Origin: a virus
IMG/VR virus record: IMGVR_UViG_3300032271_000294
Location: 1 to 41,090 of that record
DNA length: 41,090 nucleotides
Reading direction: 5' to 3' (one strand)
The notes beneath the pieces are model-generated. The model was given only the letters and a program-made list of their open reading frames with translations. It did not search any database and was not told the DNA's origin. Made by a program: the position numbers and the translations under genes. The stretch's first letter is position 1. Each line of letters begins with the position of its first letter. This document shows, in pieces, positions 17,624 to 41,090 of this stretch.

Positions 17624-17624
17624 T

Positions 17625-18368: not shown

Positions 18369-18392
18369 GATATCAATAGTTCTGGTAATTAT

Positions 18393-18400
18393 CATAAATA
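18393..18400 (+). promoter_or_regulatory. Late promoter candidate (CATAAATAC) very close to ATG
   Basis: CATAAATAC ends only four bases before the ATG at 18405. By T4 spacing the transcript would start at the ATG itself, plus or minus a base or two. No Shine-Dalgarno sequence is present. Confidence 0.5.
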
Positions 18401-18404
18401 CAAG

Positions 18405-20765: not shown

Positions 20766-20775
20766 TATTCTTTGA

Positions 20776-20808
20776 GTGTTAGAACTCTATAAATAAAGTC
20801 ACTAACAC
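20776..20808 (+). repeat. Inverted repeat GTGTTAG/CTAACAC enclosing a late promoter
   Basis: Seven-base arms at 20776-20782 and 20802-20808 flank the TATAAATA box. The right arm lies at the predicted transcript start, so it is more likely an operator-like or chance element than an RNA hairpin. Confidence 0.45.
20788..20795 (+). promoter_or_regulatory. T4 late promoter, perfect TATAAATA
   Basis: CTATAAATA is the exact T4 consensus. The predicted start near 20801 gives a leader of about 20 nt with GAGG (20810-20813) before the ATG at 20821. Confidence 0.8.
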
Positions 20809-20820
20809 CGAGGAATATAT

Positions 20821-21495
20821 ATGCTTGATGCATCCAAAACAGTAGACACAATTAAGATTCGATTTTACATTGATTGGCTTTATAATAATCATATACAAGC
20901 AGATGGTGAAAGCGAATATGAAAAAGAATTAACTGCTAAACTAGTCACTGACTTTATTGACCCATTAAATTTATCTAAGACTGCTAAAATTTTAGATTTG
21001 GCTTGTGGTGCTGGATATTTTCTAGATGAAATGAAAGCTCGTGATTATACAAATCTTACGGGCATAACACTAAGTGTGGATGATATTAAACTATGTACCG
21101 ACAAAGGGCATACAGTTCAGCAGCTAGACTTTAGCTTTCTGCCACAACGTGAAGGATATGACGATGAAAGTGTAGATTTTATATTTTTACGTCAAGCACT
21201 AGAACATAGTCCGTTTCCAATACTTACTTTGATTGAATACAATAGAGTTTTAAAACAAAATTCTAAAATTTACATAGAAGTTCCAGCACCGGATATTGAT
21301 AGAAATCATGAGAGTATTAAAAATCACTATAGTGTGCTTGGAGCCAATCAATTAGCATCATTGTTAAACAAAACTGGATTTGATATTGATTTATTCAAAA
21401 CAATTGAATTTGAAATAACAGAAGATGAGATGTCTTCAAGAGAAAAATTATATTGTGTAGTAGCTACTAAGCGTAGAGCATTGGACATTAAATAA
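20821..21495 (+). CDS. Class I SAM-dependent methyltransferase
   Basis: This 224-residue protein has SAM-binding motif I ILDLACGAGYFL (57-68), the motif II/III region GITLSVDDI, the motif IV-like VDFIFLRQALEHSPFP, and IYIEVPAPD after the post-motif IV helix. These match the methyltransferase-11/23 type used on small molecules, lipids or sugars. The substrate is unknown. It has its own consensus late promoter and a GAGG Shine-Dalgarno sequence. Its presence with the FkbM enzyme and glycosyltransferase suggests a glycan-modification set, though it may act separately. Confidence 0.85.
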   Translation: MLDASKTVDTIKIRFYIDWLYNNHIQADGESEYEKELTAKLVTDFIDPLNLSKTAKILDLACGAGYFLDEMKARDYTNLTGITLSVDDIKLCTDKGHTVQQLDFSFLPQREGYDDESVDFIFLRQALEHSPFPILTLIEYNRVLKQNSKIYIEVPAPDIDRNHESIKNHYSVLGANQLASLLNKTGFDIDLFKTIEFEITEDEMSSREKLYCVVATKRRALDIK

Positions 21496-21557: not shown

Positions 21558-22208
21558 ATGAAAATCAATCAAATTATAGACGAATATACTGACACTGATC
21601 CAGAAATCATTAAATATCTCACTCACCCAGATAGAGGTTATAAGTTTTTAGGGAAAGGAAGCGATCAAACATCATTTCTTGAACCGAGAACTGGACAAGT
21701 TCTTAAAATATTTGGAACTAAAGATGATGTTGCACTTTCTCCATCAGGAAAAAGAAAAAGACCAATATTCTCAAAAGATCAAAAAATGTTCTTTACTTGG
21801 GTCAATTATTGTAATGATAATAGCAGCAATCCATTTCTACCTAAGTTCTATGGTTTTGAAAGTTTTTATTGGAAAAAACATGTATACTTACAAATACGAC
21901 AAGAGTATTTAATTGATTTACGACCAACTTGGGGATGGAAACTATACAATATGTCAACTGATGCGGAAATGGGTGATAGTTTTGATGAAATGATTCAAAA
22001 ATATAACTTAAACAAAGAATTATATGATCATTTTGAAAAAACCAGCGGAAAAGATAGTTTAAAACTATTTTACAAAACTATGGGTAAACTTAGTCGCATT
22101 GCTGAGGGAAAAGGATGGACATTTGATCTAAATCCTAAAAATTTCATGATGCGAAACAATGGGACAATAGTTATTCTTGATCCATGGATAGTTGAAGAAG
22201 AATATTAA
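21558..22208 (+). CDS. Mini protein-kinase-fold enzyme
   Basis: At 216 residues it is short for the fold, but the landmarks are in order: a Gly-loop-like LGKGSDQTSF (31-40), an ATP-site lysine in VLKIF (K50), a catalytic loop FDLNPKNFM with D190 and N195, and D208 in LDPW at the DFG position. The HRD/HGD histidine is replaced (TFD), as in some bacterial phosphotransferase-like kinases. It could phosphorylate protein or a small molecule. The N-terminus MKINQIIDE/Y resembles the capsid-targeting-like leaders of neighbouring genes, though Tyr after Glu is unusual. The gene ends at a terminator. Confidence 0.7.
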   Translation: MKINQIIDEYTDTDPEIIKYLTHPDRGYKFLGKGSDQTSFLEPRTGQVLKIFGTKDDVALSPSGKRKRPIFSKDQKMFFTWVNYCNDNSSNPFLPKFYGFESFYWKKHVYLQIRQEYLIDLRPTWGWKLYNMSTDAEMGDSFDEMIQKYNLNKELYDHFEKTSGKDSLKLFYKTMGKLSRIAEGKGWTFDLNPKNFMMRNNGTIVILDPWIVEEEY

Positions 22209-22266: not shown

Positions 22267-22578
22267 ATGGCTACACAATTTTATAAAACATTAGAAGATA
22301 TACTAAAATTAAAAGAAGAAAACGCACAGCAGATACAAACACGTTTAGCAGAACATACGATTGATGAATCATATGATGATGCACTTGCTGGTATGCGTAA
22401 ACTTGCTGGACTAGATGGCACTAGTGCCTCAGAACCTTCAATTGAAGATAAATTCATTGACAAAAGTAAAAGACTAGAATTCATTAAAGAAAATAATATC
22501 AAGCTGGGTTCTCCGCGCTGGTTTAAAGTTATGTATGCCAAACCAGAATTAACGGGTGAAGACCCGTTTGGAGAATAA
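22267..22578 (+). CDS. Small protein preceding the large terminase
   Basis: This is 103 residues from ATG 22267; an in-frame upstream ATG at 22240 lies before the promoter and was rejected. It has an N-terminal helix ATQFYKTLEDILKLKEENAQ, then ESYDDALAGMRKLAGLDG carrying the M(R)xLAGL motif found in two other genes here. A C-terminal part (IKLGSPRWFKVMYAKPEL) and the acidic GEDPFGE end follow. It occupies the place of the T4 small terminase gp16, but no DNA-binding helix-turn-helix is obvious. It may be a head-assembly protein instead. The stop is one base before the terminase ATG. Confidence 0.65.
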   Translation: MATQFYKTLEDILKLKEENAQQIQTRLAEHTIDESYDDALAGMRKLAGLDGTSASEPSIEDKFIDKSKRLEFIKENNIKLGSPRWFKVMYAKPELTGEDPFGE

Positions 22579-22579
22579 T

Positions 22580-24139
22580 ATGAGTGATAATAATTTAGTT
22601 AGAACAAAAAGCAGAAAGATAGATATAACACCAGATCAAATAAATGAGATCATCAAGTGCTGTCATCCTCAAACGGGATACCGATACTTTATGGAAAATT
22701 ATTTTTATATACAGCATCCTAAATTAGGGCAATTGTTGTATAAGCCTTATCCGTTTCAAATCGGATTGATAGATAATTATCATACTAACAGATTTTCAGT
22801 AAGTATGATGTCAAGACAAACTGGTAAGACTACAAGTGCTGCCGGTTATCTACTATGGTTTGCAATGTTTCATCCTGATCAAACAGTGTTAATTGCTGCT
22901 CATCAATACAGCGGAGCACAAGAGATCATGGATCGTATTCGTTATGGTTATGAGTTTTGTCCAATGTGGTTAAAAGCAGCAGTTGAAACATACAACAAGG
23001 GTAATATTGACTTTGCTAATAAAAGTAGAATTGTAGCAAGAGCAACCACTGAAAAGACCGGTCGTGGTATGTCGCTATCATTATTATATCTTGATGAGTT
23101 TGCTTTCGTTCGACCAAGTATAGCAAAAGAGTTCTGGACTGCCATTTCACCTACACTATCAACTGGTGGTAAATGTATTATTACATCTACTCCTAACAGT
23201 GACGAAGATCAATTTTCAAAAATATGGCGTGAAGCTAACAAAAAAGTTGATGCTTATGGTAATGCAACTAAGTTGGGTGCTAATGGATATTCAGCGTATA
23301 AAGCATATTGGTGGGAACATCCTGATCGTGACGAAGAATGGAAGATAAGAGAAATTGCTCAAATTGGTGAAGATCGATTTAGACGAGAACACGAGCTTGA
23401 ATTTATCATTGATGAAGAAACACTAATAGACAACATAAAATTGACTGAATTGTCAAGCAAAGAACCATTGTATAAAACTGGTCAAGTCAGATGGTTTAAG
23501 AAACCAACTAAAGATAGAATATATGTAGTGGCACTAGATCCTAGTTTGGGAACAGGTGGTGATCCAGCAGCTATACAAGTATTTGAAGCAGATACTACTA
23601 CTCAAGTAGCAGAATGGCGTCATAATAAAACTACTATTCCAGAACAAATAAAAATATTAAGCGAAATCAATGAACATATTATAGAATGTACTAATCAACC
23701 CAATCACTTGTATTATAGTTTAGAAAATAATACGATTGGAGAAGCAGCATTGATATCATTACAAGAATTTGGAGAAGACAAGATTCGTGGAAATATGATT
23801 AGTGAGCCTAAAAAATTAGGTAGTGTTAAACGATATCGTCGTGGATTTACTACTACTAATCGTAGTAAGCTAGAAGCATGTAGCAAATTAAAGAATCTAA
23901 TTGAAAGCAAAAAGATGAAGATATCAAGTGAATTATTGATATCTGAACTCAAAACTTTTGTGGCAAGTGGTGGTAGTTATGCCGCAAAGTCAGGAGACAC
24001 TGATGATTTGGTGATGTCAACCCTATTGGCAGTAAGAATATTTCAACATCTACAAAGCTTTCATGTTAATATTAACAAGCATATCAGAGATCACGGAGAG
24101 ATGATTGCTCCAATGCCATTCATCGCGATGATAGGCTAA
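22580..24139 (+). CDS. 17: Terminase large subunit (T4 gp17-like)
   Basis: This is 519 residues from ATG 22580, with GGAG upstream; an earlier in-frame ATG would overlap the previous gene. The packaging ATPase has SRQTGKTT (78-85), Walker B YLDEF (D172, E173) and coupling motif TSTPN. The RNase-H-fold nuclease has ALDPSLGTGGD (D320), SLENN (E382) and SGDTDDLVMS (D473, D475, D476). In T4, gp17 docks on the portal, drives DNA into the prohead with ATP and cuts headfuls. It is shorter than T4 gp17 (610), mainly at the termini. Confidence 0.95.
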   Translation: MSDNNLVRTKSRKIDITPDQINEIIKCCHPQTGYRYFMENYFYIQHPKLGQLLYKPYPFQIGLIDNYHTNRFSVSMMSRQTGKTTSAAGYLLWFAMFHPDQTVLIAAHQYSGAQEIMDRIRYGYEFCPMWLKAAVETYNKGNIDFANKSRIVARATTEKTGRGMSLSLLYLDEFAFVRPSIAKEFWTAISPTLSTGGKCIITSTPNSDEDQFSKIWREANKKVDAYGNATKLGANGYSAYKAYWWEHPDRDEEWKIREIAQIGEDRFRREHELEFIIDEETLIDNIKLTELSSKEPLYKTGQVRWFKKPTKDRIYVVALDPSLGTGGDPAAIQVFEADTTTQVAEWRHNKTTIPEQIKILSEINEHIIECTNQPNHLYYSLENNTIGEAALISLQEFGEDKIRGNMISEPKKLGSVKRYRRGFTTTNRSKLEACSKLKNLIESKKMKISSELLISELKTFVASGGSYAAKSGDTDDLVMSTLLAVRIFQHLQSFHVNINKHIRDHGEMIAPMPFIAMIG

Positions 24140-24173: not shown

Positions 24174-25721
24174 ATGCCAAAAAGCAGAGAATCAGTAAAC
24201 GTAGAATTAAATGATCTATTAACCACTAAGGGATTTAAAGTTAAACCACTGTCAAGCTCTGGCGAAAATGCCGTTGTTCCTGAAAAGGCAGAAGCGTTTG
24301 AATTTAATTTTAAAAGCGGTGATAAAAATTATGGTACTGTAGATATTACCATAGATGATCAAAATAATATGATTGTTTACTACAACACAGAAGTTACCAG
24401 AGCATTAGATGAAGACGAAGACAATGGTGGTTGGGTACAATTTGTCAGACAATTGAAAAATTTTGCAATTCGTCGTGGTTTAAAAATGAAACTAGATGAT
24501 TTGGACAATATTGAATCTGATATGGCAACAAGAGATCATAATAGAAAATTAGACGAGGGTTATTATGGAACTCGTCAGACAAGTTACAGTGATAATGGTC
24601 CCGCCGCTATCAAAATGATCATTAAACATAATAAAGCTTTAGATGAAAATGATGCTAGATATCGTTATGTAGAGCGTATTTTTTTAGAGAATGAATATGG
24701 AGAACGTGTGCTTGTTCCAAGCACAAGACCTGGTATTGGTCGTATATTTGCTAGACATTTAGCAGAAGGTGGACTTCATAATGATGAAAGATGGAAACAT
24801 ATTACAGAAATAGTAGAAGATGCTAGAAAATTAGGTGGATTTGTTCGAGCTACAAAAACAAAACAATTTAATGAAAGTGTACAACGAATTGTACTAGAAG
24901 CAACAGAACACTATAAGACTTTGCGTGAAAATCTTAAAAGACTACAAAGTGTACGTGGATACAATAATTATTTTGAAAGCTGGCAGCCTACTTTAATGGA
25001 AGATTCAGATGATTCTAGTCTAATAGAATTGTTTAAAAATAGTTCAGTTGATATCAGAATAGAAAATGCATTGCCTGTTTTAAATAAATTAAATTTAACT
25101 ATTACAGAAACTTCTGACATGTCAATGTTTGAGGATTGGGCTAATAATATATTAGATGAGATGTTAACACCAGATCAACCTGGACAACGTAGTGACTTAG
25201 TTGAGCTATTGGGTTCAGACAGTGAATTTTTGGCACTAGGACCAGATGCAAAAAATGCCATTGGTGAATTGAACGGACTAATAGAAAACGACAAACTTTA
25301 TTCTAGATTACGTAGAGCAGCAACTAGAAACACTAATCGCGATGCTCGTAGTATAATTATAGCATGGATGAGTGAGCAACGTGGCGATGAGTATCATGAC
25401 ATATTAGATCAAATTGAACCACAAAGTGATACTACTCCGGAAGAGCCTGCTTCGTCTCCAGCTCCAGAAGAGCCAGAATCATCTCCACCAGTTTCAGATG
25501 AAGAACCAGAAGAAGAGCCAGAAGAAGAACCTGCTTCTTCTGGAATGTCTCAGATTCCAGCACTAAGTGGCGGAAATCAAGTTAAAGAACAGCGTAAGCA
25601 AAGTAAAATCAAGAGAGTTCAAGATAATTCTAAATGGGTTGATCCTAATATCAAGGCACTTAAGAATCCAATGGAGCTTTCTGAATCACTAGAACGAATT
25701 AAAAGGTTAAGCGGACTATGA
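24174..25721 (+). CDS. Conserved phage protein, possibly head-associated
   Basis: This 515-residue protein has an alpha/beta N-terminal domain (VNVELNDLLTTKGFKVKPLS, NYGTVDITI, NMIVYYN). A helical middle follows with VLVPSTRPGIGRIFARHLAEGG (about 182-203) and KQFNESVQRIVLEATEHY. A Pro/Glu-rich spacer of EEPESSPP/EEPEEEP repeats (about 422-455) precedes the C-terminus, which is SESLERIKRLSGL, a variant of the M(R)xLAGL motif. I recall related proteins in marine T4-like phages but no assigned role. It overlaps the next gene by four bases (ATGA). Location after terminase suggests head biology; unproven. Confidence 0.65.
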   Translation: MPKSRESVNVELNDLLTTKGFKVKPLSSSGENAVVPEKAEAFEFNFKSGDKNYGTVDITIDDQNNMIVYYNTEVTRALDEDEDNGGWVQFVRQLKNFAIRRGLKMKLDDLDNIESDMATRDHNRKLDEGYYGTRQTSYSDNGPAAIKMIIKHNKALDENDARYRYVERIFLENEYGERVLVPSTRPGIGRIFARHLAEGGLHNDERWKHITEIVEDARKLGGFVRATKTKQFNESVQRIVLEATEHYKTLRENLKRLQSVRGYNNYFESWQPTLMEDSDDSSLIELFKNSSVDIRIENALPVLNKLNLTITETSDMSMFEDWANNILDEMLTPDQPGQRSDLVELLGSDSEFLALGPDAKNAIGELNGLIENDKLYSRLRRAATRNTNRDARSIIIAWMSEQRGDEYHDILDQIEPQSDTTPEEPASSPAPEEPESSPPVSDEEPEEEPEEEPASSGMSQIPALSGGNQVKEQRKQSKIKRVQDNSKWVDPNIKALKNPMELSESLERIKRLSGL

Positions 25722-26896
25722 GAGCAGAACAATTTATCTTAGAGAATTCAGAACCAGTAGGTCGTGAATTTCAGCACATTGAAGATTTGGCATACATTTA
25801 TGGACCAGAAGGCGCAATGCGTGCAATAGAAAGATTGATTAGAATTAATAATGATAGCGGTCACATGGAAGTAAAATGGGACGGAAGTCCAGCCATTGTG
25901 TTTGGTCGTAATGATAAGGGTGAATTTCATTTTGGTGATAAATTCAGTCGTCAGTTTAATACTAGCCCAGACATGTTATACAAACAGTATGAGCCAAAAG
26001 ATGCTAACAATGATGATCGTAGACAGTTTGCTGGCGAGATGATGGCACTGTACAAACTATACGAGCAAGCAACTCCACTTGAATTTCGTGGATTCTTAGA
26101 ATGTGGATTGCTATATAAAGTTAGACCAGCATTAAAAAATAATGAATATTCATTTCAGCCCAATACTGTAATCTATCACGTAGATGCAAACAGTAAATTG
26201 GGACAAATGATAAGTCATAGCACTAGTGCTGCCGCGGCCACTGCTTATTTTAAAATAATTCCTGGAATGGGTGGACAGCGAGAAGCAGTAGGAACTAATC
26301 ATACAGGAATTGGAAGCAAAAGCGTTCTTATTATTCCTCCTAAATTTACAGAAGTTCAAGCATCAGTATCGACTGAAAAACTTAAAAGAGTAGAAACATT
26401 TATTAAGCAAGCTGCTCCAAGAATGGAAGAATTTTTAACACCAGATGAAGAATGGGTGCAAACATTTAGAAATGAAGAGCAAGCTGGCCCTGCATGGCGT
26501 CAAGTTATTTACAAATATGTTAATAGTCAAGTAGATACTCCTGGAGCATTAGATTCACTAGGATCAAATATGGCTCAATGGGCAACTACTGATGTTATAT
26601 TGACAGCTCGTCGTAGACCAATTGCTATTAATAAAATAAAAAGCAGTCAAAGCGGATTAAGAGCTACGTTCTTGGTAGTTCGTGCTATTATGCATTTGAA
26701 AGATATGGTCATTGATCAAATTGAAAAACCAACACTAGGAAGTTTGGGTATCAGAGCAGAATTGCCATTTGATTATGGATCAGGCGGAGAAGGATTTGTA
26801 AGCGATCCAGCAGGCGGAGTTCAACCATTGAAATTTGTTAAACGTGCTGGATTTACAGCAGCAAATCGTTATCAGAATCGTGGCGGAAAATCGTGA
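25718..26896 (+). CDS. KxDG ligase/nucleotidyltransferase-like protein
   Basis: This 392-residue protein has EVKWDGSPAIVFG (51-63), which gives KWDG (53-56), the motif-I lysine of the covalent nucleotidyltransferase superfamily (DNA/RNA ligases, capping enzymes). FRGFLECGLLYK puts E128 at a motif-III place, GGEGFVSD gives E358-G-F-V for motif IV, and LKFVKR gives K372/K375 for motif V. The order fits an adenylating ligase-like core, but motif I to IV spacing is long and an OB domain is not evident, so the reaction is uncertain. The N-terminus MRAEQFILE/N loosely resembles neighbouring leader peptides. Starts and stops overlap both neighbours by four bases. Confidence 0.65.
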   Translation: MRAEQFILENSEPVGREFQHIEDLAYIYGPEGAMRAIERLIRINNDSGHMEVKWDGSPAIVFGRNDKGEFHFGDKFSRQFNTSPDMLYKQYEPKDANNDDRRQFAGEMMALYKLYEQATPLEFRGFLECGLLYKVRPALKNNEYSFQPNTVIYHVDANSKLGQMISHSTSAAAATAYFKIIPGMGGQREAVGTNHTGIGSKSVLIIPPKFTEVQASVSTEKLKRVETFIKQAAPRMEEFLTPDEEWVQTFRNEEQAGPAWRQVIYKYVNSQVDTPGALDSLGSNMAQWATTDVILTARRRPIAINKIKSSQSGLRATFLVVRAIMHLKDMVIDQIEKPTLGSLGIRAELPFDYGSGGEGFVSDPAGGVQPLKFVKRAGFTAANRYQNRGGKS

Positions 26897-27702
26897 AAAT
26901 AAGAGAACTATTAGCAGAATCAATTAATAAAATCGGTAACAAAGATACTGCTATAGTAGGTTGGGGGCGTGGAATGGGCCACAAAGGTCATATGTACTTG
27001 GCACACGCAGTTATATCCACCGCTCATAGACTACACGCTGATGCTTATTTTATTGTAAGCGAGACAGTAGGTAAAGATGATCCATTACTACCAGATGAGA
27101 AACTAGAGATTTATCGTACTGTATTCCCAAATCACGTTGATTCATTTCAAACTGCCAAAAATTTAATTGATGTACTACATCAATTAAATAATGATGGATA
27201 TAAAAATTGTATGGTTATGGTAGGTGAAGATCAAAAAACAGAATTTCAATATTTACTTAGATACAACGGAGTACCAGCAAAAACAACTGGAAATATTATA
27301 TATAATTTTGACAAATTAACTGTAATAAGTCGTCAAGAATCTGGTGACAAGTATGCAAATGAAGCTGGCCCAAGAGCTACTCCAATGAGAGAAATATTAA
27401 AAGAACCAGATGCTACATATGAACAAAAATTTAATTTATGGCGTGAGTGTATGCCAGCAAAGTTAGATGATGGTGAAGTAGAGCATTATATGCAGTTAGC
27501 AGCAGAAAGAATGGGATTTCCTGTAGAACGTGGATTAGATGAAGCAGATAATCCAAACAACGGCGGAGCGGGAATGGGAAGTCAAAGTGCTATTCCAGGA
27601 ACTCCAATTGCACTATCAACTACTAAACCAACTCCAAGAGAAATTAAACTTGCTGCAATTAATGCCAAAAATACAGAAAGGTTTATGGGCCACAGAAGAT
27701 GA
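26893..27702 (+). CDS. HxGH nucleotidyltransferase with gp24-like N-terminal leader
   Basis: This 269-residue protein begins with GTG overlapping the previous stop (GTGA). It has the nucleotidyltransferase-fold opening AIVGWGRGMGHKGHMYLAHAV with HKGH (30-33), the nucleotide-binding signature of NMN/pantetheine adenylyltransferases and cytidylyltransferases. MVGEDQ (strand 4) follows, and then RATPMREIL at the place of the family's ISxTxxR motif. It likely transfers AMP or CMP to a phosphorylated acceptor; the substrate is unknown. MKIRELLAE/S closely matches the T4 gp24 propeptide start as I recall it (INELLRE/S), suggesting cleavage after Glu9. Ends by overlapping the first amidoligase-like gene (ATGA). 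Confidence 0.75.
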   Translation: MKIRELLAESINKIGNKDTAIVGWGRGMGHKGHMYLAHAVISTAHRLHADAYFIVSETVGKDDPLLPDEKLEIYRTVFPNHVDSFQTAKNLIDVLHQLNNDGYKNCMVMVGEDQKTEFQYLLRYNGVPAKTTGNIIYNFDKLTVISRQESGDKYANEAGPRATPMREILKEPDATYEQKFNLWRECMPAKLDDGEVEHYMQLAAERMGFPVERGLDEADNPNNGGAGMGSQSAIPGTPIALSTTKPTPREIKLAAINAKNTERFMGHRR

Positions 27703-30700
27703 AATTGTACGAATTATTCATTAAAAAAAGAAATGTACAACTGAATGAAGTTAATATGAGTTCTAGTGCATTAAAATCTTGGGCAAAAAAACATGCTAGT
27801 GGCATGAAAGCGGGGTTTGAAGCAGAACTAATATTTAAAGATATGCTTAACACTACAGATGATGAAGAAGATCAAGATCAAGAACCTGATTATGATAGAG
27901 ATGAGCGTGCCAATACTATAGATCAAATCCTAGAGTTTTTTAGTCCATTACTTGATTCATCCACGAGAAACTCTGCTGAACAACAAATGCACGATTCTTA
28001 CACTGAATGGAGAGACACTGCAGTGCTTGAGGAATTTGCTGAACAGGCACGTGACTTGATTAGAGACTATATTAAAGCTGATCTTCGCTGGGAATATTCT
28101 GAAAAAATTCATGAATATTTTGTTAATGAACTGGGTAAAACTTCAGAAGAAGCAACTGATATAATGAATGATCCAGATCGCACTGATAATGATGAGTACA
28201 TATTTGTAAAAAGAGAAGTATCAGATCAATTAACTCAATTAGTTGAACGTTCCATGAGAGATCATGATGGAAACTGGCAGGGAGCTTATGACGAGTTTAT
28301 AGAAAACTGGGAAGCTTCTGAAAGAAGTTGGTTGAGAAATATTGGTATCTTTAGTATGCGTGATGTAGGCTCAAGATTTTCATTCGCGAATGAATGGCCA
28401 TATTGGAGTCGAGTAAATAACACTGTTCCTGCAGATGGTCACTATCATGTAGGACATGCTCTTATCTTGGCAGGTAGTCTAGAAAAAGCACTAGGTGTAA
28501 AAACACAAGTAGAATCTGGTACTAGAGGCTCTACAGCAAAACGTAATACTCCATCTGATGTTTGGGTATTTGAAGCAGATGGTAGCTTAAATTCAACTAA
28601 TAGCGAAGACATGCCCGTGGAAATTGTTAGCCCACCTATGTCGCTAGAAGAAACTCTAGCAATTATGCCCAAGTTCTTTGAATGGGCAAAAAGTCACAAA
28701 GCCTATGCTAATAAAAGTACTGGAATACATATGAGTGTTAGTATGCCAGAACACAGTGGTAATGATTTAGATTACGTTAAGGCAGCATTATTTTTGGGTG
28801 ATCAATACATACTAGAACAGTTTGGTCGAACTGCCAATTCATATGCTCAGTCGGCAATGAAAAATATTAAAGATATTATTAACTCAAGCAGATCAAGAAC
28901 TGTTATACCAAGACCAGATGATAAAATTGAGCAAGCATTTAAACAAATGCGAACAGAATTAAATTCTTTAGCTACAAATGCATTTGCCTCTTCTGCTGGA
29001 TATGGCAAGTATTTTACTATTAATCCCAAAGACAAGTACATTGAATTTCGTTCAGCTGGTGGAGTAGATTATATTAATAATATTTCTAAGCTACAAAATA
29101 CAATGTTACGTTATGCACGTGCAATGAGTATAGGCATGGATGTCAATTCAGAAAAGCAAGAGTATGCTAAGAAATTATATAAGTTATTAGGTGATGTACG
29201 ATTACAAAAAAATTCTGATGATAAATTAACAACTGTATCTAAACATGATCCAATTTGGTATTTTTCTCAATATGTAGCTGGTGAATTGGCAAAAAGTAAT
29301 TTAAAAGATATAATTAGGCAAATTCAAAGTACTCGTAAGCTTTATAAAAAGTCAGATCAAGGCAATAAAATGTTTTATAGAGTTTCATATAGAGCATACG
29401 AAGGAGCAGATCGTCAAGGTGGGCCACAAACAACTGTTCAGGCCCGTAGTCAAGATGAAGCTATAGCTTTGGCTCGTGCAGAATGGCACATATCTCCAGA
29501 AACTCATCGAGGATGGCAAAATTCTGACTTTATAGCTAGACCGATAGGTTCGACTCCAACTGGCGCAGCAAATGTTACCACACAAAATAACCCTGACAAT
29601 CTACCTAGATGGGAAGTATTTAATGTTAACGATTTTTCATGGACGGTTCCTGGATATGGTGATACTGAACGAGCTGCTATCATGAATGCTCTACAAAATT
29701 ATCATTATAGTTTATGGACTAGAGGATCAACTGAGCCTACAGAATTTAGAGCAACATTACTATCAGATGATGCAACATCCAGACAAACTGATAGTTCAAA
29801 TGATATTCAGCCTGGGCATATACCGGACTATTTGCCAAATAACACTCAAGAGGGAAATTGGGCAATAAGAAATAGAGATAGTAATCGTCAAGTTGGACGA
29901 GGGCCAATACTGTATCAATTTCAAGCTTTGGGAAATAATCTGGCAATTGACATAGCAATGCAGTATGCAACAGCAATAGGAGTTTCACGAGCTCGTTTGT
30001 GGTTAAGTCCGATATCGGAAGTTCCACGAGAATACAGAACACAAAGATCAGAAAATCACGAAACTCGTCGCCCTGCAGAACTAGATGCTACTAGAACAAG
30101 TACAACTGGATATTGGATTGTGTTTAATTCAGCCGATGGTGTTACAAACATGGACAATCTAGCTCTTCTTCCGGCTATTACTGGACAAGATGCACAACTT
30201 GCATATCAACATTGGCTTCAAAATACTGGTTACATGTTAGGGCGTGAGGCACGATTTTATCTTCGCCCAGCAGATTCATATGACATTATAGATGCACGAG
30301 ATAGAAATCTGCCAGTTCCTCCCAGAATGCAGGCTAACTCTCCACAGACTCTTGAACCAAGTAATCCTGAAGGCAATTGGGGAATAAGAGCGTCAGATGG
30401 TCGTATAGTGTATCGCTTTATTAGCCACAATACCGGTACGTTAATTGATCGTTTAAGAGCATATGCCAATGCAATAGGACAAGATTACAGAAATTATAGT
30501 ATAGACCGAGTTGACCCAGAGAGTACTACTGCTGAACCAGAAAGGTCTACTAATGCTACTGATCCTAATGAATCGCTACAATGGAATATTATCGACTCTT
30601 CTACTAATGAAGTTCTACATCATATTACTTTGCCATCAACTACTCCTCCATCTGCAAGACATACTGAGGCATGGCAGATGGGAGTAGAATGGACAGATGA

Positions 30701-30767
30701 TGCCAGAATTCGAGGACTTCGTATACCGCGAATTGAATTAGTTCCATTGCCAATGCTGTATCCATAA
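27699..30767 (+). CDS. Giant amidoligase-like protein, paralog A
   Basis: In this 1022-residue protein the leader MKLYELF...QLNE/V (1-17) precedes the enzyme core. The core follows the amidoligase (PF12224-type, glutamine-synthetase-like COOH-NH2 ligase) order: GFEAEL (39-44), WVFEADGSL, VEIVSPPM (307-314), TGIHMSV (341-347) and YIEFRSAGG (447-455). Glu and His at these places are expected metal/ATP ligands. An acidic helical insert of about 230 residues separates GFEAEL from the rest. Beyond about residue 545 there are six modules of 50-75 residues with W.(I/V)...VLYxF...A...W patterns. The substrate is unknown; relatives form amide or peptide bonds. First of three tandem paralogs. Confidence 0.75.
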   Translation: MKLYELFIKKRNVQLNEVNMSSSALKSWAKKHASGMKAGFEAELIFKDMLNTTDDEEDQDQEPDYDRDERANTIDQILEFFSPLLDSSTRNSAEQQMHDSYTEWRDTAVLEEFAEQARDLIRDYIKADLRWEYSEKIHEYFVNELGKTSEEATDIMNDPDRTDNDEYIFVKREVSDQLTQLVERSMRDHDGNWQGAYDEFIENWEASERSWLRNIGIFSMRDVGSRFSFANEWPYWSRVNNTVPADGHYHVGHALILAGSLEKALGVKTQVESGTRGSTAKRNTPSDVWVFEADGSLNSTNSEDMPVEIVSPPMSLEETLAIMPKFFEWAKSHKAYANKSTGIHMSVSMPEHSGNDLDYVKAALFLGDQYILEQFGRTANSYAQSAMKNIKDIINSSRSRTVIPRPDDKIEQAFKQMRTELNSLATNAFASSAGYGKYFTINPKDKYIEFRSAGGVDYINNISKLQNTMLRYARAMSIGMDVNSEKQEYAKKLYKLLGDVRLQKNSDDKLTTVSKHDPIWYFSQYVAGELAKSNLKDIIRQIQSTRKLYKKSDQGNKMFYRVSYRAYEGADRQGGPQTTVQARSQDEAIALARAEWHISPETHRGWQNSDFIARPIGSTPTGAANVTTQNNPDNLPRWEVFNVNDFSWTVPGYGDTERAAIMNALQNYHYSLWTRGSTEPTEFRATLLSDDATSRQTDSSNDIQPGHIPDYLPNNTQEGNWAIRNRDSNRQVGRGPILYQFQALGNNLAIDIAMQYATAIGVSRARLWLSPISEVPREYRTQRSENHETRRPAELDATRTSTTGYWIVFNSADGVTNMDNLALLPAITGQDAQLAYQHWLQNTGYMLGREARFYLRPADSYDIIDARDRNLPVPPRMQANSPQTLEPSNPEGNWGIRASDGRIVYRFISHNTGTLIDRLRAYANAIGQDYRNYSIDRVDPESTTAEPERSTNATDPNESLQWNIIDSSTNEVLHHITLPSTTPPSARHTEAWQMGVEWTDDARIRGLRIPRIELVPLPMLYP

Positions 30768-30803
30768 TCAATAACTAAAATACAGAAAAGTTTAATGTCT
30801 ATA

Positions 30804-30811
30804 GATAAATA
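30804..30811 (+). promoter_or_regulatory. Late promoter GATAAATACATAT, leaderless
   Basis: The octamer ends five bases before the ATG at 30817, so the predicted transcript starts at the ATG. There is no Shine-Dalgarno sequence. It gives the second paralog independent late expression. Confidence 0.65.
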
Positions 30812-30816
30812 CATAT

Positions 30817-33636
30817 ATGAAACTGTATGAATTATTTGAAAAACAATTAAACGAAGTCAATATGAGTCCTGGCTCATTAAAGTCATGGGCTAGAAAAAAT
30901 GCCAGTGGAATTACCGCTGGATTTGAAGCCGAATTGGTATTTAAAAACGCACTTCATGTTGATGAAAATCCTTCAGAACCAAATTATGAGCCTGACTATG
31001 GTACAAATGAGCGTGCCAACTCTATTGATGAAATAGTTTATTTTTTCAGTGAAGACTCTACTTTGAGTGTTGGAGAACAAAACAGACTTCAAGACAGACT
31101 CACTAGTGAATATGTAGAGTGGAAAGTTGAAAAAATGCAAGATGAATTTAATAGACACGTTACTCATTATGTAAGAAAATATCTTTTAAAAACTTTTCGT
31201 TTTGAAGAAGAAATAAAGGCTTATATGTCAGTTCGTATGGAAATGACAGATGATGAAATTGATACCGCGATGGCAGGATCAAATAACTTTCCGACCGACA
31301 AATATAAAGAAGCTAAAGAACTAGTATTCAATGAATTTACTCAAAGAGTTCACGATGCGGTAGATGATCAAAATGAAGATTATTATGACGCTCGTCAAGA
31401 TTTTGAATCAAATTTTGAGTATGATGATACTTATAGTGAACGTTCTTGGTTAAGAAGTAATAGTCTGGGATCAATGATTGACGTTGCAAATGCATATGAT
31501 ATTCCATGGCCTCATTTTTCAGAAGTAGAAGAAAATAATAATTCATTCGATGGACGCTATCATTCTAATATTGCACAAGAACTAGCTGACTCTCTAACAG
31601 AAAAACTAGGTGTAAAAACACAAGTAGAAACTGGTACTAGAGGACATCGTGAAAAACTAAATACTCCTCCTGATGTTTGGGTATTTGAAAATGACGGCAG
31701 TGTACGTGCAGAGAATATCAAAGACATGCCTATAGAAATTGTTAGTCCGCCCATGTCACTAGAACAAACTCTAGCAATAATGCCTAAGTTCTTTGAATGG
31801 GCAAAAAGTCATGAAGCTTATACTAATAACTCGACTGGAATCCACATGAGCGTTGGCATGCCAGAACATAGTGGTGATAAATTAGATTATACTAAAGCTG
31901 TATTATTTTTAGGTGACAAATACGTACTAGAACAATTTGGCCGAATAGCAAATTCATATGCTCAGTCTGCACTTGACGAAATTAAATCAAAAATTAACTC
32001 AAGAAGAGTAAATCTAATACCAGCTGATAATGCTGTGACAAAAGCTCTTGATGCAATGCGTACAAAATTAAATTCACTGGCTACAAGATCATTTGTAAGT
32101 TCGGCTGGATTTGGTAAGTACTACACTATTAATCCTAAAGACAACTATATTGAATTTCGTTCAGCCGGCGGCAAAGATTATATCAAAGATATTCCCAAGC
32201 TACAAAACACTATGTTGCGTTATGCTCGTGCAATGAGCATAGGTATGGATCTCGATGCAGAAAAACAAGAGTATGCTAAGAAATTATACAAGTTGCTAGG
32301 TGACGTGAGACTTACTACAACTAGAAGTGATGATACATTTGGTCCACCATCTTCAATAAATAAAAAAGACACAGCAGTGTCATACGATCCAAATGATCCA
32401 GTTTGGCTTTTTGCTCGTTATGTGTCTGGTAATCTTTCAAGAATTGGATTAATTAATAATATTAGACAAATTCAATCAACAAGAAAAGGTCCTCTACCTA
32501 AGTCTTCTAATAATAACAGAAAAACATGGCAAGTATATGATATGTCAACTAGTGACTCTTCGCCTAACGGAGGATTGATTCATGAATTTGAGAACCCAGA
32601 GGGTAATAGACCAAGTGCTATAAGAATTGCACGAGAATGGTTAAATTCTCATCCAGAAGAATTTCGTCCTAATCTGGGAGTAAGACCAGCTCCAGTATCG
32701 CCAGTACATAGTTGGAGAGTATGGAACATATATAGACCTGGTAATACTCGTACTGCATTTGGAAGCACAGCACAAGAGGCTATTACTAGTGCTAGAGCAG
32801 ATCCTGAAAATTCAGATTGGTCTCGTGGATATAATCAAGCAGATTTTGGAGCAGCTCGTATTACTGGACTAACTGATAGTCAAACTATACCGATGCCTAT
32901 AGCGGATTTACCTCCAAGTGATCCAAATGGTAATTATGTTGTAAAAACTTACGATGGTACGGGCCGTGCCGGCACGGGCGGTGCTAGAGGTCAGGTAGTG
33001 TATCAATTCTCGGCTGAAAATCTTAGTACAGCGTTTAACATAAAACTACAATGGGTAGAATCAATAAATGGCGTGCAATCAGATTATATCTTAGCACGAG
33101 CAGAGACCGCTACACAACAAGAGCCTGAGATGAATTTACCTCCAAATGATCCAAATGGTAATTTTATAATAAGAGCAAGACAGCAAAATTCCTCAGGCGA
33201 ATATAGCAACGAAGGATCTGGTCCGGTATTATATCAATTCTCGGCAAGTAGTGGTGGAGAAGCAGTACAGGTAAAAAGACGATGGGTACAATCAGTAGGC
33301 GGACAGAATGTACAATATTTCTTAGGCAATGCCGCTGATATACAACGATTACAAGCAACAAACACACCTCAATCTAGTCAGTACACTCGATTACGTAATC
33401 GAACTAGTCAAAATGGATATTGGGTTATCTATAGTACTAGTAGTCATTTAAATGTTGCTATTATCCCTGCCACTACTCAAGATGATGCAGATTCTGAATA
33501 TTCAAACTGGCTACAATCTGAATGGAGACCAGACGATAACTATGGTATTCGTCCAGCAGATCCAGAAGATTTACAAAATGCTCGTGATGCTGGCATGGAA
33601 ATTCCTCCACGAAATAATAATAATTATATTGACTGA
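30817..33636 (+). CDS. Giant amidoligase-like protein, paralog B
   Basis: In this 939-residue protein the leader MKLYELFEKQLNE/V (1-14) precedes GFEAEL (35-40), an acidic helical insert, WVFENDGS, IEIVSPPM (306-313), TGIHMSV (340-346) and YIEFRSAGG (444-452). Over the core it is closely similar to paralog A. After about residue 565 at least five modules follow. Two are adjacent near-duplicates opening NGN(Y/F)(V/I)(V/I) and containing V(V/L)YQFSA, each ending in a long helix with W. The last, NGYWVIY...IPPR, pairs with a module of paralog A. The core is conserved while module number differs between paralogs. The substrate is unknown. Confidence 0.75.
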   Translation: MKLYELFEKQLNEVNMSPGSLKSWARKNASGITAGFEAELVFKNALHVDENPSEPNYEPDYGTNERANSIDEIVYFFSEDSTLSVGEQNRLQDRLTSEYVEWKVEKMQDEFNRHVTHYVRKYLLKTFRFEEEIKAYMSVRMEMTDDEIDTAMAGSNNFPTDKYKEAKELVFNEFTQRVHDAVDDQNEDYYDARQDFESNFEYDDTYSERSWLRSNSLGSMIDVANAYDIPWPHFSEVEENNNSFDGRYHSNIAQELADSLTEKLGVKTQVETGTRGHREKLNTPPDVWVFENDGSVRAENIKDMPIEIVSPPMSLEQTLAIMPKFFEWAKSHEAYTNNSTGIHMSVGMPEHSGDKLDYTKAVLFLGDKYVLEQFGRIANSYAQSALDEIKSKINSRRVNLIPADNAVTKALDAMRTKLNSLATRSFVSSAGFGKYYTINPKDNYIEFRSAGGKDYIKDIPKLQNTMLRYARAMSIGMDLDAEKQEYAKKLYKLLGDVRLTTTRSDDTFGPPSSINKKDTAVSYDPNDPVWLFARYVSGNLSRIGLINNIRQIQSTRKGPLPKSSNNNRKTWQVYDMSTSDSSPNGGLIHEFENPEGNRPSAIRIAREWLNSHPEEFRPNLGVRPAPVSPVHSWRVWNIYRPGNTRTAFGSTAQEAITSARADPENSDWSRGYNQADFGAARITGLTDSQTIPMPIADLPPSDPNGNYVVKTYDGTGRAGTGGARGQVVYQFSAENLSTAFNIKLQWVESINGVQSDYILARAETATQQEPEMNLPPNDPNGNFIIRARQQNSSGEYSNEGSGPVLYQFSASSGGEAVQVKRRWVQSVGGQNVQYFLGNAADIQRLQATNTPQSSQYTRLRNRTSQNGYWVIYSTSSHLNVAIIPATTQDDADSEYSNWLQSEWRPDDNYGIRPADPEDLQNARDAGMEIPPRNNNNYID

Positions 33637-33642
33637 TAAATA
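33635..33642 (+). promoter_or_regulatory. Late promoter GATAAATATACAT, leaderless
   Basis: The box overlaps the stop codon of paralog B, and the octamer ends five bases before the ATG at 33648. The predicted start coincides with the ATG; there is no Shine-Dalgarno sequence. Confidence 0.65.
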
Positions 33643-33647
33643 TACAT

Positions 33648-36116
33648 ATGAAATTATATGAATTATTTATTCAGCAACTAGACGAAGTAAGTCAAGCTCC
33701 AACACGTTTAGCTCAATTTGCTAATAGTCCCGAGGCAGAAGGAATCATCGCCGGTTTTGAAGCAGAGCTATGCTTTTCTGATATTCGTGAGAACACTGAT
33801 TCTGAATCAGAGCCAGATATGGATTATGATAGTCACACTAATAGTATTGACAATATTATTAATTTTTTTAGACAGGGCGATAACATGGGTTATCGAGAGC
33901 TAGATCGTCTACAAACAAATTTAACTGAAGATTTTCTTGAATGGGTAAATGAACAAGCATCAGAAGACTTTGAAAGAAATAAAGAAAGATTGATTAAAGA
34001 CTATATCATAGAAAATGAATGGGATTGGGACGAGCAAATAAAAATTGATTTAAAAGATAATGGCTATGATGATGGAAGAATAGAAGACGCGATCTTTGCT
34101 AATAACAAAATTATTAAACTTAGAAATAATTATCAAAAAGATTCAGAAGAATACAAATTAGAAGTTAAACCATATTTAGATGATTATGAACTCTATGTCA
34201 TTGGAAAAGAACTGGCAGACAAAACATTAGATGACATGGTAGAAAACTCTATTAGTTCTCGTGATGATATCTATGATCAAACAGAAGAAAATATCAGAGA
34301 AGAATACGGAGAAGATCCAAACATGGAAAATGAGTGGCTGGCAGCCGCCAATCTCAGTTACATGAGTGATGTTAATCTCGCTTATGATGATGCATACTGG
34401 CCATTTTGGACTAGTGATAGTGACGATGATGAAGGATTTGATGAGTCGGCAGCACAGTGGCTTGCAAATGATTTAAAAACAAAGTTAGGAGTAAGAACAT
34501 TTGTAAGTAGTGGTCATGGATATGGTGGAGATAGACAAAGAGATTGGGTATTTGAACCAGATGGTAGTTTACAGGCTAGTAGTACTAGCGACATGACAGT
34601 TGAAATAGTTAGTCCTCCTATGCCACTAAAAGAATGTCTTGATATAATGCCTAAGTTTTTCAAATGGGCCGCATCACGAGATGCATATGCCAATGAAACC
34701 ACTGGTTTTCATATGAGTGTAAGTGTACCATCACAAGATACTAGTTTAATAGATTATACTAAATTGGCATTATTCTTGGGTGATGTGCATGTTCTAGAAG
34801 AGTTTAACAGAGATGGTAATCATTTTTGTGTGTCTGCTATGGAAAAAATCAAATCCAAAGTAGCAAGAGGAAATATTGATATAGAAAATGTATTTACTTT
34901 GATGAAAGAGGGTCTTGATAATATTGCTAGCAGTTTAATAGCACCAAACGGTGGGTTTGGAAAATATATCAGTATAAATCCTAAAGACAAGTACATTGAA
35001 TTTCGTAGTGCCGGCAATACAGATTATTTTGATGATATAGATAAATTACAAAATACACTACGTAGATATGCACAAGCTATACACATTGCCAGTGATCCTT
35101 CTTATGAACGAAAAGAATATCAAAAGAAATTATATAAGCTACTTGCTCCTACCGAAAAGATTGCTCCTGAGCTTGCTAAAAAATTAGCATCATTTTCTGC
35201 TGGAAGACTAAGCAAAGAAGAATTAGATAATTGGCTAAAAGAACTAAAGAGTACACTTTTTAAGAAAAATTTAATTAGAAATACAGATAGTCTAGCAGCA
35301 TCAGGAAGAATATTAAACTGGGATGTTTCAGCTAAAGACGAACCAAGATATAACTACTGTAATGTTTTTGCAAAAACCAAAAAAGATGCACTTGAGTTAG
35401 TTAAAAAATGGGAAACAGAATGGCACAACACACGTGCATCTGTCGATGACTGGGAAGCTACGCTAGTAGGAGAAAGTACAACAGAATCATCAATGAAACG
35501 TGTTGCGGTCAGAGATCATTATGGAACTTTGACTATAGCAAATAATTCAACTAATCTTTCCGACGCGTATCTTACTCAATCTAAGTGGGAGCTAGTAAAT
35601 AATAATGAATTAGTACCAGAAACAGTTTGTAAAGTACTGGCTAGTGACAAATCAGTTGCTGAGGTAATAGCTGATTCGTGGCTACGTTCTATGTATAAAC
35701 AACGTAATGGACTAGCTGGATTTGAACTAAAACCACTAAATGAAGTGGCTCGAAGTGAAATGAATCAATCTACACAAACTAGATCAAATTCTAATGTTCA
35801 AGATATTGGAATGGATATTGCTCAAAATTTTATTCCTGGATCCACTTTGGACTTACAACGTCAAGCTCAAGCTCAAGCTCGACGCGAACGTCAACGAGAA
35901 GCACGACTATCAGGCGGCGAATTTACTGGTGAGTGGATAGTGGTTAATGGATCAGATCAAGAAGTTTATAGATTCGGTGGCATAGGCAACTCTCAAAGTG
36001 ATGCTAATCGAGTAGCTGGTGAATGGGCACAGAGAACTGGATATTTCAACAACAACAACTCTAGATACTCGGTATATCCGGTATTGAGCCCCGATACAAC
36101 TCAATCCACAACTTAA
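33648..36116 (+). CDS. Giant amidoligase-like protein, paralog C
   Basis: This 822-residue protein is the most diverged of the three. The leader MKLYELFIQQLDE/V (1-14) precedes GFEAEL (36-41), the insert with many Asp/Glu, WVFEPDGSL, VEIVSPPM (318-325), TGFHMSV (352-358) and YIEFRSAG (449-456). All putative ligands are kept. After about residue 550 only three modules are evident; the last (GEWIVVN...EVYRFGG...A..WAQRTG) follows a Gln/Arg-rich linker (RQAQAQARRERQREAR). Retention of the leader and core with variable tails suggests the core reaction is common and the tails select partners. That is inference. Confidence 0.75.
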   Translation: MKLYELFIQQLDEVSQAPTRLAQFANSPEAEGIIAGFEAELCFSDIRENTDSESEPDMDYDSHTNSIDNIINFFRQGDNMGYRELDRLQTNLTEDFLEWVNEQASEDFERNKERLIKDYIIENEWDWDEQIKIDLKDNGYDDGRIEDAIFANNKIIKLRNNYQKDSEEYKLEVKPYLDDYELYVIGKELADKTLDDMVENSISSRDDIYDQTEENIREEYGEDPNMENEWLAAANLSYMSDVNLAYDDAYWPFWTSDSDDDEGFDESAAQWLANDLKTKLGVRTFVSSGHGYGGDRQRDWVFEPDGSLQASSTSDMTVEIVSPPMPLKECLDIMPKFFKWAASRDAYANETTGFHMSVSVPSQDTSLIDYTKLALFLGDVHVLEEFNRDGNHFCVSAMEKIKSKVARGNIDIENVFTLMKEGLDNIASSLIAPNGGFGKYISINPKDKYIEFRSAGNTDYFDDIDKLQNTLRRYAQAIHIASDPSYERKEYQKKLYKLLAPTEKIAPELAKKLASFSAGRLSKEELDNWLKELKSTLFKKNLIRNTDSLAASGRILNWDVSAKDEPRYNYCNVFAKTKKDALELVKKWETEWHNTRASVDDWEATLVGESTTESSMKRVAVRDHYGTLTIANNSTNLSDAYLTQSKWELVNNNELVPETVCKVLASDKSVAEVIADSWLRSMYKQRNGLAGFELKPLNEVARSEMNQSTQTRSNSNVQDIGMDIAQNFIPGSTLDLQRQAQAQARRERQREARLSGGEFTGEWIVVNGSDQEVYRFGGIGNSQSDANRVAGEWAQRTGYFNNNNSRYSVYPVLSPDTTQSTT

Positions 36117-36167: not shown

Positions 36168-36197
36168 TTGACAAAGAGATCATTGATCGTATATAAT
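36168..36197 (+). promoter_or_regulatory. Sigma70-like promoter TTGACA-18-TATAAT
   Basis: TTGACA (36168-36173) and TATAAT (36192-36197) are both perfect boxes, separated by 18 bases. Transcription from about 36204 gives gene 32 a leader of about 78 nt, unlike the leaderless promoters elsewhere. Confidence 0.8.
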
Positions 36198-37384: not shown

Positions 37385-37615
37385 ATGACACTACCCGATG
37401 AGCGTTATCGCGCCATAAAACAAGGTAAGAAATTACTAGAAGAACTATGTGATCCTGGAAAAACACCTCGTGTACCAGCAATCATAAGAGAACGAGCACG
37501 CGGAGCACTGAGACATTATCCTAATGATTATGAGTTAGATAATATAGCAAAGGAATGCCCAGACCTACTTGACATACACTCGTTTTCTATATATAATAAC
37601 GTATATAAAGGATAA
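37385..37615 (+). CDS. BPSL0761-like small protein
   Basis: This 76-residue protein opens MTLPDERYRAIKQGKKLLEEL and continues with PAIIRERARGALRHYPNDYEL. This matches, as I recall it, the BPSL0761 family of small bacterial proteins (PxERxRA...T..FL.EL, then P...R..A..LLRHYP). That family is of unknown function and common in Proteobacteria, so a host-derived gene is plausible. It has GGAG before the ATG, sits after the GAAA hairpin and ends three bases before uvsX. Placement in the recombination block suggests a DNA-related role, but this is only context. Confidence 0.65.
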   Translation: MTLPDERYRAIKQGKKLLEELCDPGKTPRVPAIIRERARGALRHYPNDYELDNIAKECPDLLDIHSFSIYNNVYKG

Positions 37616-40362: not shown

Positions 40363-41090
40363 ATGAAAATTAATGATCTATTACAAGAAAGTTTTTGGTC
40401 CGATATTAAGAGTGGGTCTAAACGGCTTATCTCTTATTTCTCTAAAGTATTCAGCAAACTTCAATTTGGACAGAAGGTAGAAATCGATTTGTCTGACTAT
40501 TTATCATCATCCACTGCTTTAGATGAAGCAAAAAAGAACACTAAAGATCGAGAAGTTTTTAATTTAACTGCAATGATAGGCTACTACAATGAGTATTGTG
40601 TCGGCTGGAAGTTGGCCTATGGATTAGAACATAACGGAATCAAAATTAAAACAAATGTCTCCGAGGGATTAAAGCAATTTGCTGATAATTATCGTTCTTA
40701 CATTGTAGACAATATATTAAAGTTTAAACCAAATACCCCAGAGCAAGTTTTTGCTGAATTGAAAAGAGCCGAAGAAGGTGGTGAAATTATGGCAAAAAAG
40801 ATATGGGATGAAATTCGTGATGATCATGATTTCAAACTAATCGAAGTTGACATACATTTAACTGGTAGCATTGTTGATAAAGATGCACCACGTTCTGAAA
40901 AGGGCAAAGAAGATGTTAAGATAACTATTAGAAAGTTAGATACAGAAGAAGTGCTAGAAGAAATAAAAGCCAGTTTAAAACTTTACAAAAGTTCTAGTGG
41001 CGTTAATATATATAATGCTACTTTTGCCTCTTATCTAATGACAGTTATAACTGGTACAGAAAATCCTGCTACTGGTAAAAAAGCAATTGA
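40363..41090 (+). CDS. Partial protein with gp24-like leader MKINDLLQE/S
   Basis: The frame stays open to the window end, giving at least 242 residues. MKINDLLQE/S matches the T4 gp24 propeptide start almost residue for residue (INELLRE/S as I recall it), predicting cleavage after Glu9. The body is alpha/beta with KIKTNVSEGLKQFADNY, FKLIEVDIHLTGSIVDKD and EDVKITIRKL...EEIKASLKLYKSS. D...E-I-K could be a PD-(D/E)xK-type nuclease centre, but this is weak without the fold. It is the last gene in view and has its own late-type promoter. Function unassigned. Confidence 0.7.
   Translation, partial: MKINDLLQESFWSDIKSGSKRLISYFSKVFSKLQFGQKVEIDLSDYLSSSTALDEAKKNTKDREVFNLTAMIGYYNEYCVGWKLAYGLEHNGIKIKTNVSEGLKQFADNYRSYIVDNILKFKPNTPEQVFAELKRAEEGGEIMAKKIWDEIRDDHDFKLIEVDIHLTGSIVDKDAPRSEKGKEDVKITIRKLDTEEVLEEIKASLKLYKSSSGVNIYNATFASYLMTVITGTENPATGKKAI

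Follow-up and report, generated by a model that had tools for sequence, protein, structure and literature searches.

The uncultured virus record IMGVR_UViG_3300032271_000294 is a 41-kb fragment, analysed here over its whole length of 41,090 nucleotides (the window) and compared with a relative on a 169.8-kb contig, G002. The phage of origin is an uncultured T4-like giant phage. Between positions 27699 and 36116 the window carries three uninterrupted tandem open reading frames (ORFs) on the + strand, of 1022, 939 and 822 residues, which we call AL1, AL2 and AL3. A first-pass annotation of the sequence had delimited these ORFs exactly and read them as amidoligase-like paralogues. We find that all three do keep the complete active-site motifs of that family, and we put forward a feature that had been missed, namely N-termini with a T4-type signature for head targeting and cleavage. 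This signature is the most informative feature of the locus, because it is suggestive of where the enzymes act. Phage amidoligases are known; what seems new is the apparent site of action.

Three amidoligase paralogues with inserts and tails

All three ORFs exceed the curated cut-off (22 bits) of the Amidoligase_2 profile PF12224. A six-frame search with the same profile gave 35.7, 30.1 and 24.5 bits for AL1, AL2 and AL3, and no match in 14 control genomes. The parts of the three genes are as follows, with omega (the nonsynonymous to synonymous rate ratio) computed between the window and G002.

27699-30767, + strand: AL1, amidoligase paralogue 1, 1022 residues; PF12224 33.7 bits, all motifs
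30817-33636, + strand: AL2, amidoligase paralogue 2, 939 residues; PF12224 27.9 bits
33648-36116, + strand: AL3, amidoligase paralogue 3, 822 residues; PF12224 23.2 bits
28563-29258, + strand: main catalytic part of AL1 (WVFE.DGS to EFRSAGG and C-cap); omega 0.15
31678-32361, + strand: main catalytic part of AL2; omega 0.13
34545-35207, + strand: main catalytic part of AL3; omega 0.24
27837-28562, + strand: acidic helical insert of AL1, 242 residues, isoelectric point (pI) 4.4
30943-31677, + strand: acidic helical insert of AL2, 245 residues, pI 4.5
33777-34544, + strand: acidic helical insert of AL3, 256 residues, pI 4.1
29376-30764, + strand: tail of AL1, with beta-beta-alpha-beta modules at 29844-30029 (clear) and 30342-30470 (partial)
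32512-33633, + strand: tail of AL2, with three modules at 32512-32700, 32932-33111 and 33163-33348
35259-36113, + strand: tail of AL3, with one clear module at 35898-36089

The segments GFEAEL, (V/I)EIVSPPM, TG(I/F)HMSV and YIEFRSAG, on which the family reading had been based, are collinear in the three proteins, and the catalytic motifs ExE, E.D(G)S, E(I/L)VSP, TG.H.S and EFR are present in order. In an alignment of 25 family members D293, E307, G341, H343, K360, R376, E446, F447, R448 and G451 (AL2 numbering) are invariant, and E37 and E39 nearly so. AL2 is 47% identical to AL1 and 31% to AL3. An AlphaFold2 model of the AL2 core has a predicted local distance difference test score (pLDDT) of 77.7, and the best 50 fold matches listed for it in the PDB are glutamine synthetases (GS), GS-like ligases (e.g. 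gamma-glutamylmethylamide synthetase) and YbdK/glutathione-synthase relatives, all weak (E 0.008-0.1, TM about 0.2) and obtained from an insert-laden model. The core profile searched against PDB sequences gave a single doubtful match (E 0.008) over a helical stretch, which we discarded. No cellular relative was confirmed in the genome contigs searched by pattern, at the sensitivity of that pattern.

On these sequence grounds AL1-3 almost certainly belong to the amidoligase family. We predict that they are very likely active enzymes, because the motifs are invariant, the fold matches (weak as they are) are GS-like and omega in the catalytic part is 0.13-0.24, i.e. under purifying selection. Compared with the tail, omega is lower there in AL1 and AL2, not in AL3. 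The same triple is found in G002 at 55506-63923 (AL1 orthologue at 55506-58580), with whole-gene omega of 0.21-0.36, and is therefore not an artefact.

The acidic insert noted earlier is indeed inside the core; it measures 242-256 residues with a pI of 4.1-4.5, lies between the GFEAEL and WVFExDGS strands, and is modelled as a helical bundle with high confidence. The tails do contain repeats, but the three to six modules per tail that had been proposed are borne out only in part, since a repeat profile recovers two (one of them partial), three and one in AL1, AL2 and AL3. The module is about 60 residues long. From 31 aligned copies a beta-beta-alpha-beta domain is predicted (pLDDT 83.5), and its model has no match with E<1 in the PDB.

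The annotation overstated the novelty of amidoligases in phages, where they are common: 35 viral proteins in BFVD match at E≤0.001, and many of them are annotated as amidoligases. It was right that the tandem giant form is unusual, but large tandem or fused versions recur (contigs L040, L053, L055, L032 and L043). Two tandem copies are found in each of L053 and L055. In L040 one ORF has two amidoligases, and a further one, cut off by the edge of the contig, lies just upstream. AL1-3 resemble other PF12224 members, including phage ones such as AUZ94978 of Agrobacterium phage Atu_ph07, in the profile match, the motif order and the weak GS-type fold matches. They differ from them by the acidic helical insert of about 250 residues between the ExE and FExDGS strands, the repeat tails, the three tandem giant copies and the tag-like N-terminus.

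Amino termini resembling T4 head-targeting sequences

The putative propeptides are listed here, a slash marking the presumed cleavage point.

27699-27749, + strand: putative capsid-targeting propeptide of AL1, MKLYELFIKKRNVQLNE/V, by comparison with the N-termini of T4 IPI-III, gp24 and gp22
30817-30855, + strand: putative capsid-targeting propeptide of AL2, MKLYELFEKQLNE/V; residues 1-11 have pLDDT <50
33648-33686, + strand: putative capsid-targeting propeptide of AL3, MKLYELFIQQLDE/V, on the same basis as AL1

All three proteins start with MKLYELF, with Y4 and F7 in each, and have an (L/I)xE site followed by V (LNE17 in AL1, LNE13 in AL2, LDE13 in AL3), by which we mean the presence of the motif only. 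The T4 proteins start with MKTYQEFIAE/A (IPII and IPIII), MKTFKEF...ITE/A (IPI), MAKINELLRE/S (gp24) and MLKEQLIAE/A (gp22), at cut positions that we place by the L/I-x-E rule. Like T4 IPI, IPII, IPIII and Alt, AL1-3 have M-K-x-[YF]-x-x-F and an (L/I)xE within 20 residues and are encoded among virion genes. The LxE ends at residue 13-17 in AL1-3, at 10 in IPII and IPIII and at about 19 in IPI. Unlike the T4 internal proteins, the cargo would here be an amidoligase of 94-117 kDa, and its packaging is predicted from sequence. In T4, residues 4 and 7 are the main determinants of capsid targeting, and the cut falls after (L/I)xE (PMC9026906).

The site is conserved well beyond the window. LxE-[VIL] lies 18-25 residues ahead of GFExE in 20/20 non-identical full-length sequences of the main lineage, a set extracted by the GFExE motif and including orthologue pairs. 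It is kept even where the amidoligase sits within a larger fusion protein and in the two-domain protein of L040. Smaller divergent members start with MRLDEFLLTE/K and MSRFKHYILNE/A, and the one of L034 with MRARNFIAE/A. The Atu_ph07 relative (AUZ94978) starts with MRWQDISSKKLTE/LKM and is two genes away from the portal. By accession offset (portal gp198, core gp204) it would be gp196, which falls inside the virion-protein-rich cluster of that phage, CDS 170-215 (PMC6102473).

A strict regular expression for the tag matches 48 of the 695 gene N-termini in the fetched contigs (6.9%) and 17 of their 3881 internal methionines (0.44%). The cleavage position shows a 4.0-fold excess of E relative to how often E occurs locally, against 0.88-fold for D. 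Applied to T4, the expression retrieves 7 of 236 genes, including the known head or core proteins IPII, IPIII, gp22 and gp24. The T4 and E-versus-D controls carry most weight, because the expression was written with our sequences in view. Tagged genes are commoner near amidoligases (28/402) than elsewhere in G002 (2/142, P 0.01), and a basic-plus-(L/I)xE pattern is found in 13/15 standalone amidoligases and in 12% of the genes used as background (P about 9e-11).

Neighbouring genes, fusions and apparent recent exchange

The main features around the amidoligases are the following.

18405-20765, + strand: Pol-beta nucleotidyltransferase (NTase) and ParB-like protein, homologous to amidoligase fusions over their N-terminal half
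21558-22208, + strand: kinase-like protein (phrog_15752, gp0.7-type), tag-like MKINQIIDE/Y
22556-24139, + strand: large terminase subunit, whose gene opens the packed block; PF03237, 51% identity to PA5oct
24174-25721, + strand: virion structural protein, homologue of PA5oct gp278 (detected by electrospray tandem mass spectrometry, ESI-MS/MS)
25718-26896, + strand: DUF6267 protein with a KWDG nucleotidyl-transfer-like motif, tag-like MRAEQFILE/N; PF19782 2.5e-24
26893-27702, + strand: cytidylyltransferase-like protein, tag-like MKIRELLAE/S; phrog_3041 5.8e-22
36168-36197, + strand: 12/12 sigma-70 promoter, opening a separate unit at gp32 (36282)
40363-41090, + strand: start of another tag-like gene, MKINDLLQE/S, continuing beyond the window end

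Judged by the terminase, Pseudomonas jumbo phages of the PA5oct type are the nearest isolated phages (51% identity), and the gene order terminase, structural protein, gp32-like protein, UvsX is conserved between the window and PA5oct. The amidoligase genes are preceded by those of the terminase, the virion structural protein, the DUF6267 protein and the cytidylyltransferase. Junctions in this terminase-to-amidoligase block are overlapping or of 11-50 nt, and the 165-nt gap 3' of AL3 contains a perfect sigma-70 promoter ahead of gp32. Perfect TTGACA-N17/18-TATAAT promoters are found at 36168-36197 (before gp32) and at 37569-37597 (before UvsX), the only 12/12 sigma-70 matches within the 19 kb scanned. 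At 16664-21495, FkbM-type and class I methyltransferases and a possible glycosyltransferase (weak Anp1) flank the NTase-ParB gene, perhaps as a surface or virion glycan module.

A prohead protease is strongly matched in PA5oct, in Atu_ph07 and in four more amidoligase contigs (G005, G017, G018 and G023). Among the PA5oct proteins detected by mass spectrometry (MS), gp279 (MKLFEVFTLYE), gp333 (MKINDIITE) and gp246 (MKIKDILVE) look tagged. The first of these (L025:16595-18043) is a virion protein and not an amidoligase; its gene is directly behind the terminase and it has a GKGTRWCTA motif.

In several relatives (L032, L036, L043, L044, L046 and L052) a larger protein has the amidoligase as its C-terminal part and an N-terminus that matches the product of 18405-20765 (phmmer 1e-74 to 1e-120, or 6e-66 to 2e-120 including the L031 fusion). 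The last 60-75 residues of that product match the segment upstream of the amidoligase in all these fusions but that of L052, and an HExxH motif (HELTH/HELVH) is also present in those of L032, L043 and L046. The L031 protein joins a cytidylyltransferase (1.8e-15 to the window gene at 26893), an NTase (6e-66) and an amidoligase, and sequence comparison supports only these two domains besides the amidoligase. A DUF6267 domain in the same protein was rejected, given no Pfam, BLAST or phmmer match and an hhalign probability of 0.4%. In the window the NTase and cytidylyltransferase homologues are separate genes, which the fusions of the relatives imply to act in one process.

Such fusions recall polyvalent proteins, which were proposed to be packaged and injected, and among which ADP-ribosyltransferase, kinase, GNAT and Pol-beta NTase domains are listed as protein-modifying (Iyer et al. 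2017, PMC5512222); the word amidoligase is absent from the text of that paper. Like them, relatives of AL1-3 from large tailed phages combine the amidoligase with a cytidylyltransferase, a Pol-beta NTase and an HExxH segment. Unlike them, AL1-3 have one recognised catalytic domain each, the other parts being separate window genes, whereas the L031, L043 and L032 proteins qualify as polyvalent.

Synonymous divergence (dS) between the window and G002 is 0.08-0.12 for AL1-3 and 0.05 for the kinase gene (21558-22208), against 0.68-0.97 for the three genes immediately upstream of AL1 and 0.37-0.42 for terminase and gp32. The AL1-3 block and the kinase gene seem to have been exchanged recently, because their dS is several-fold below that of flanking genes. 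Recent cassette exchange is as expected for a host-interaction locus.

Probable packaging and proposed action in the host

Because their front ends resemble the T4 head-packing tags, AL1-3 probably enter the host by injection and modify some component of it. They would be diverged, apparently active ATP-dependent COOH-NH2 ligases of the GS fold that form part of the head cargo. Synthesised together with terminase and other virion proteins, they would be drawn into the prohead core by the T4-type capsid-targeting sequence MKLYELF..., trimmed after LxE (residue 13 or 17) by a gp21-type protease and ejected with the DNA, and they would then form amide bonds on host molecules early in infection. 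The most plausible targets would be proteins or peptides, and other tagged enzymes (kinase, cytidylyltransferase, DUF6267 protein) may act alongside. That AL1-3 are packaged in the head and ejected we consider reasonably likely; the full account, with trimming and modification of the host, has in our view barely better than an even chance. Given packaging and activity, the chances that the substrate is a host protein or peptide are roughly even.

Several observations weigh against this account. The tag expression was composed with these sequences already in view. In PA5oct the strict tag is found in 2/86 MS-detected proteins versus 1/153 others, which is not significant (P 0.29). The LxE is absent from the megaphage LR745206 copy (MRKYSDKFLSQ) and from that of L058, and elsewhere its conservation could reflect the domain fold rather than a cleavage site. 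A full head maturation protease was not found in the 170-kb G002, which has only a 129-residue protease-family protein (G002:144291-144680, partial phrog_207 match). The E-values of the PDB matches to the fold model are weak. Finally, the T4 late promoter motif (TATAAATA) was not found ahead of the amidoligase block, though we did not use this as evidence because the motif is rarer than chance in the window.

AL1-3 might instead be ordinary amidoligases used in the infected cell, e.g. for amidation of cell-wall peptides, nucleotides or small molecules, and never packaged, with LxE and the N-terminus as part of the domain. Many phages have amidoligases without such N-termini being noted, LxE-[VI]xMSP is conserved to the same degree as the core motifs, and the PA5oct test gives the tag no significant link to virions. 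Yet, the tag-like segment of AL2 is disordered in the model (residues 1-11), MKLYELF is fixed among the paralogues while the length up to LxE varies, the tag is also found on unrelated neighbouring genes, and the genes are packed behind terminase and virion genes. We thus regard a purely intracellular role as unlikely. All evidence for packaging would equally suit enzymes that cross-link or amidate capsid, core or scaffold proteins in the prohead, as an enzymatic counterpart of HK97 cross-linking, with incidental ejection, and the location of the genes with terminase and head genes fits this too. But several divergent paralogues and recent cassette exchange look like a host-interaction locus and not like conserved assembly machinery, PA5oct (the nearest relative in isolation, judged by terminase) has no match, and the supply of ATP within the prohead is uncertain, all of which makes this role improbable. 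It is less probable still that AL1-3 are catalytically dead internal proteins whose fold and repeats bind DNA or core. The insert and repeat tails are large compared with the catalytic part, which speaks for such a role, but all catalytic motifs are kept in the three paralogues and 25 relatives, and the catalytic part has the lower omega in two of the three genes.

If AL1-3 are packaged and active, amide-bond formation would join the known or proposed injected activities, ADP-ribosylation, kinases and acetylation, and this would help explain why one phage retains three diverged copies. One might speculate, with somewhat less than even confidence, that amidoligases form another class of host-modifying enzymes carried in virions, a set of specialised ligases that would be injected as infection starts and, together with co-injected nucleotidyltransferases and a kinase, would couple host proteins to amines, amino acids or peptides. 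The R2K ligases of jumbo phages offer a parallel, being phage enzymes that are predicted to form peptide bonds and for which a role in modifying host translation has been proposed, but they have the ATP-grasp fold and not that of GS, and the available part of their description mentions no head-targeting tag (PMC7824862).

The short N-terminal tag provides an inexpensive means, open to testing, of cataloguing the injected effectors of large phages that are uncultured, and in the contigs studied here it picks out arrays of unknown genes beside amidoligases. Seven genes at L057:13743-20271 have a T4-like tag (MRFLKYLQE, MRLKKYLRE, MRLQKYLQE, MRFQQYLIE, MRLQHYLVE) and are a candidate set of injected proteins. 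Close to the amidoligase of L034 (13925-14791; also in L038 and L056) is a tagged protein of 288-450 residues, MRATEFLIE/RISSRVFHYTRVTTALKILQSGKFELS, which has no match in Pfam, PHROG or NCBIfam and, by eye, a faint likeness to ADP-ribosyltransferases. In Methylophilales phage Melnitz-3 (L072:7204-11867) the DUF6267 and cytidylyltransferase homologues also start tag-like by eye (MINFSKYITE, MKKFSEIIE), as does a neighbour gene (MQGFKTFLSE), although these N-termini fail the strict expression; the homologues in Prochlorococcus phage P-HM1 are without tag-like peptides. Lastly, related gp0.7-type kinase-like proteins of 197-219 residues recur beside amidoligases (window:21558-22208, L032:12183-12776, L043:11877-12488, L051:12997-13656), and those of the window and L051 start with clearly tag-like sequences.

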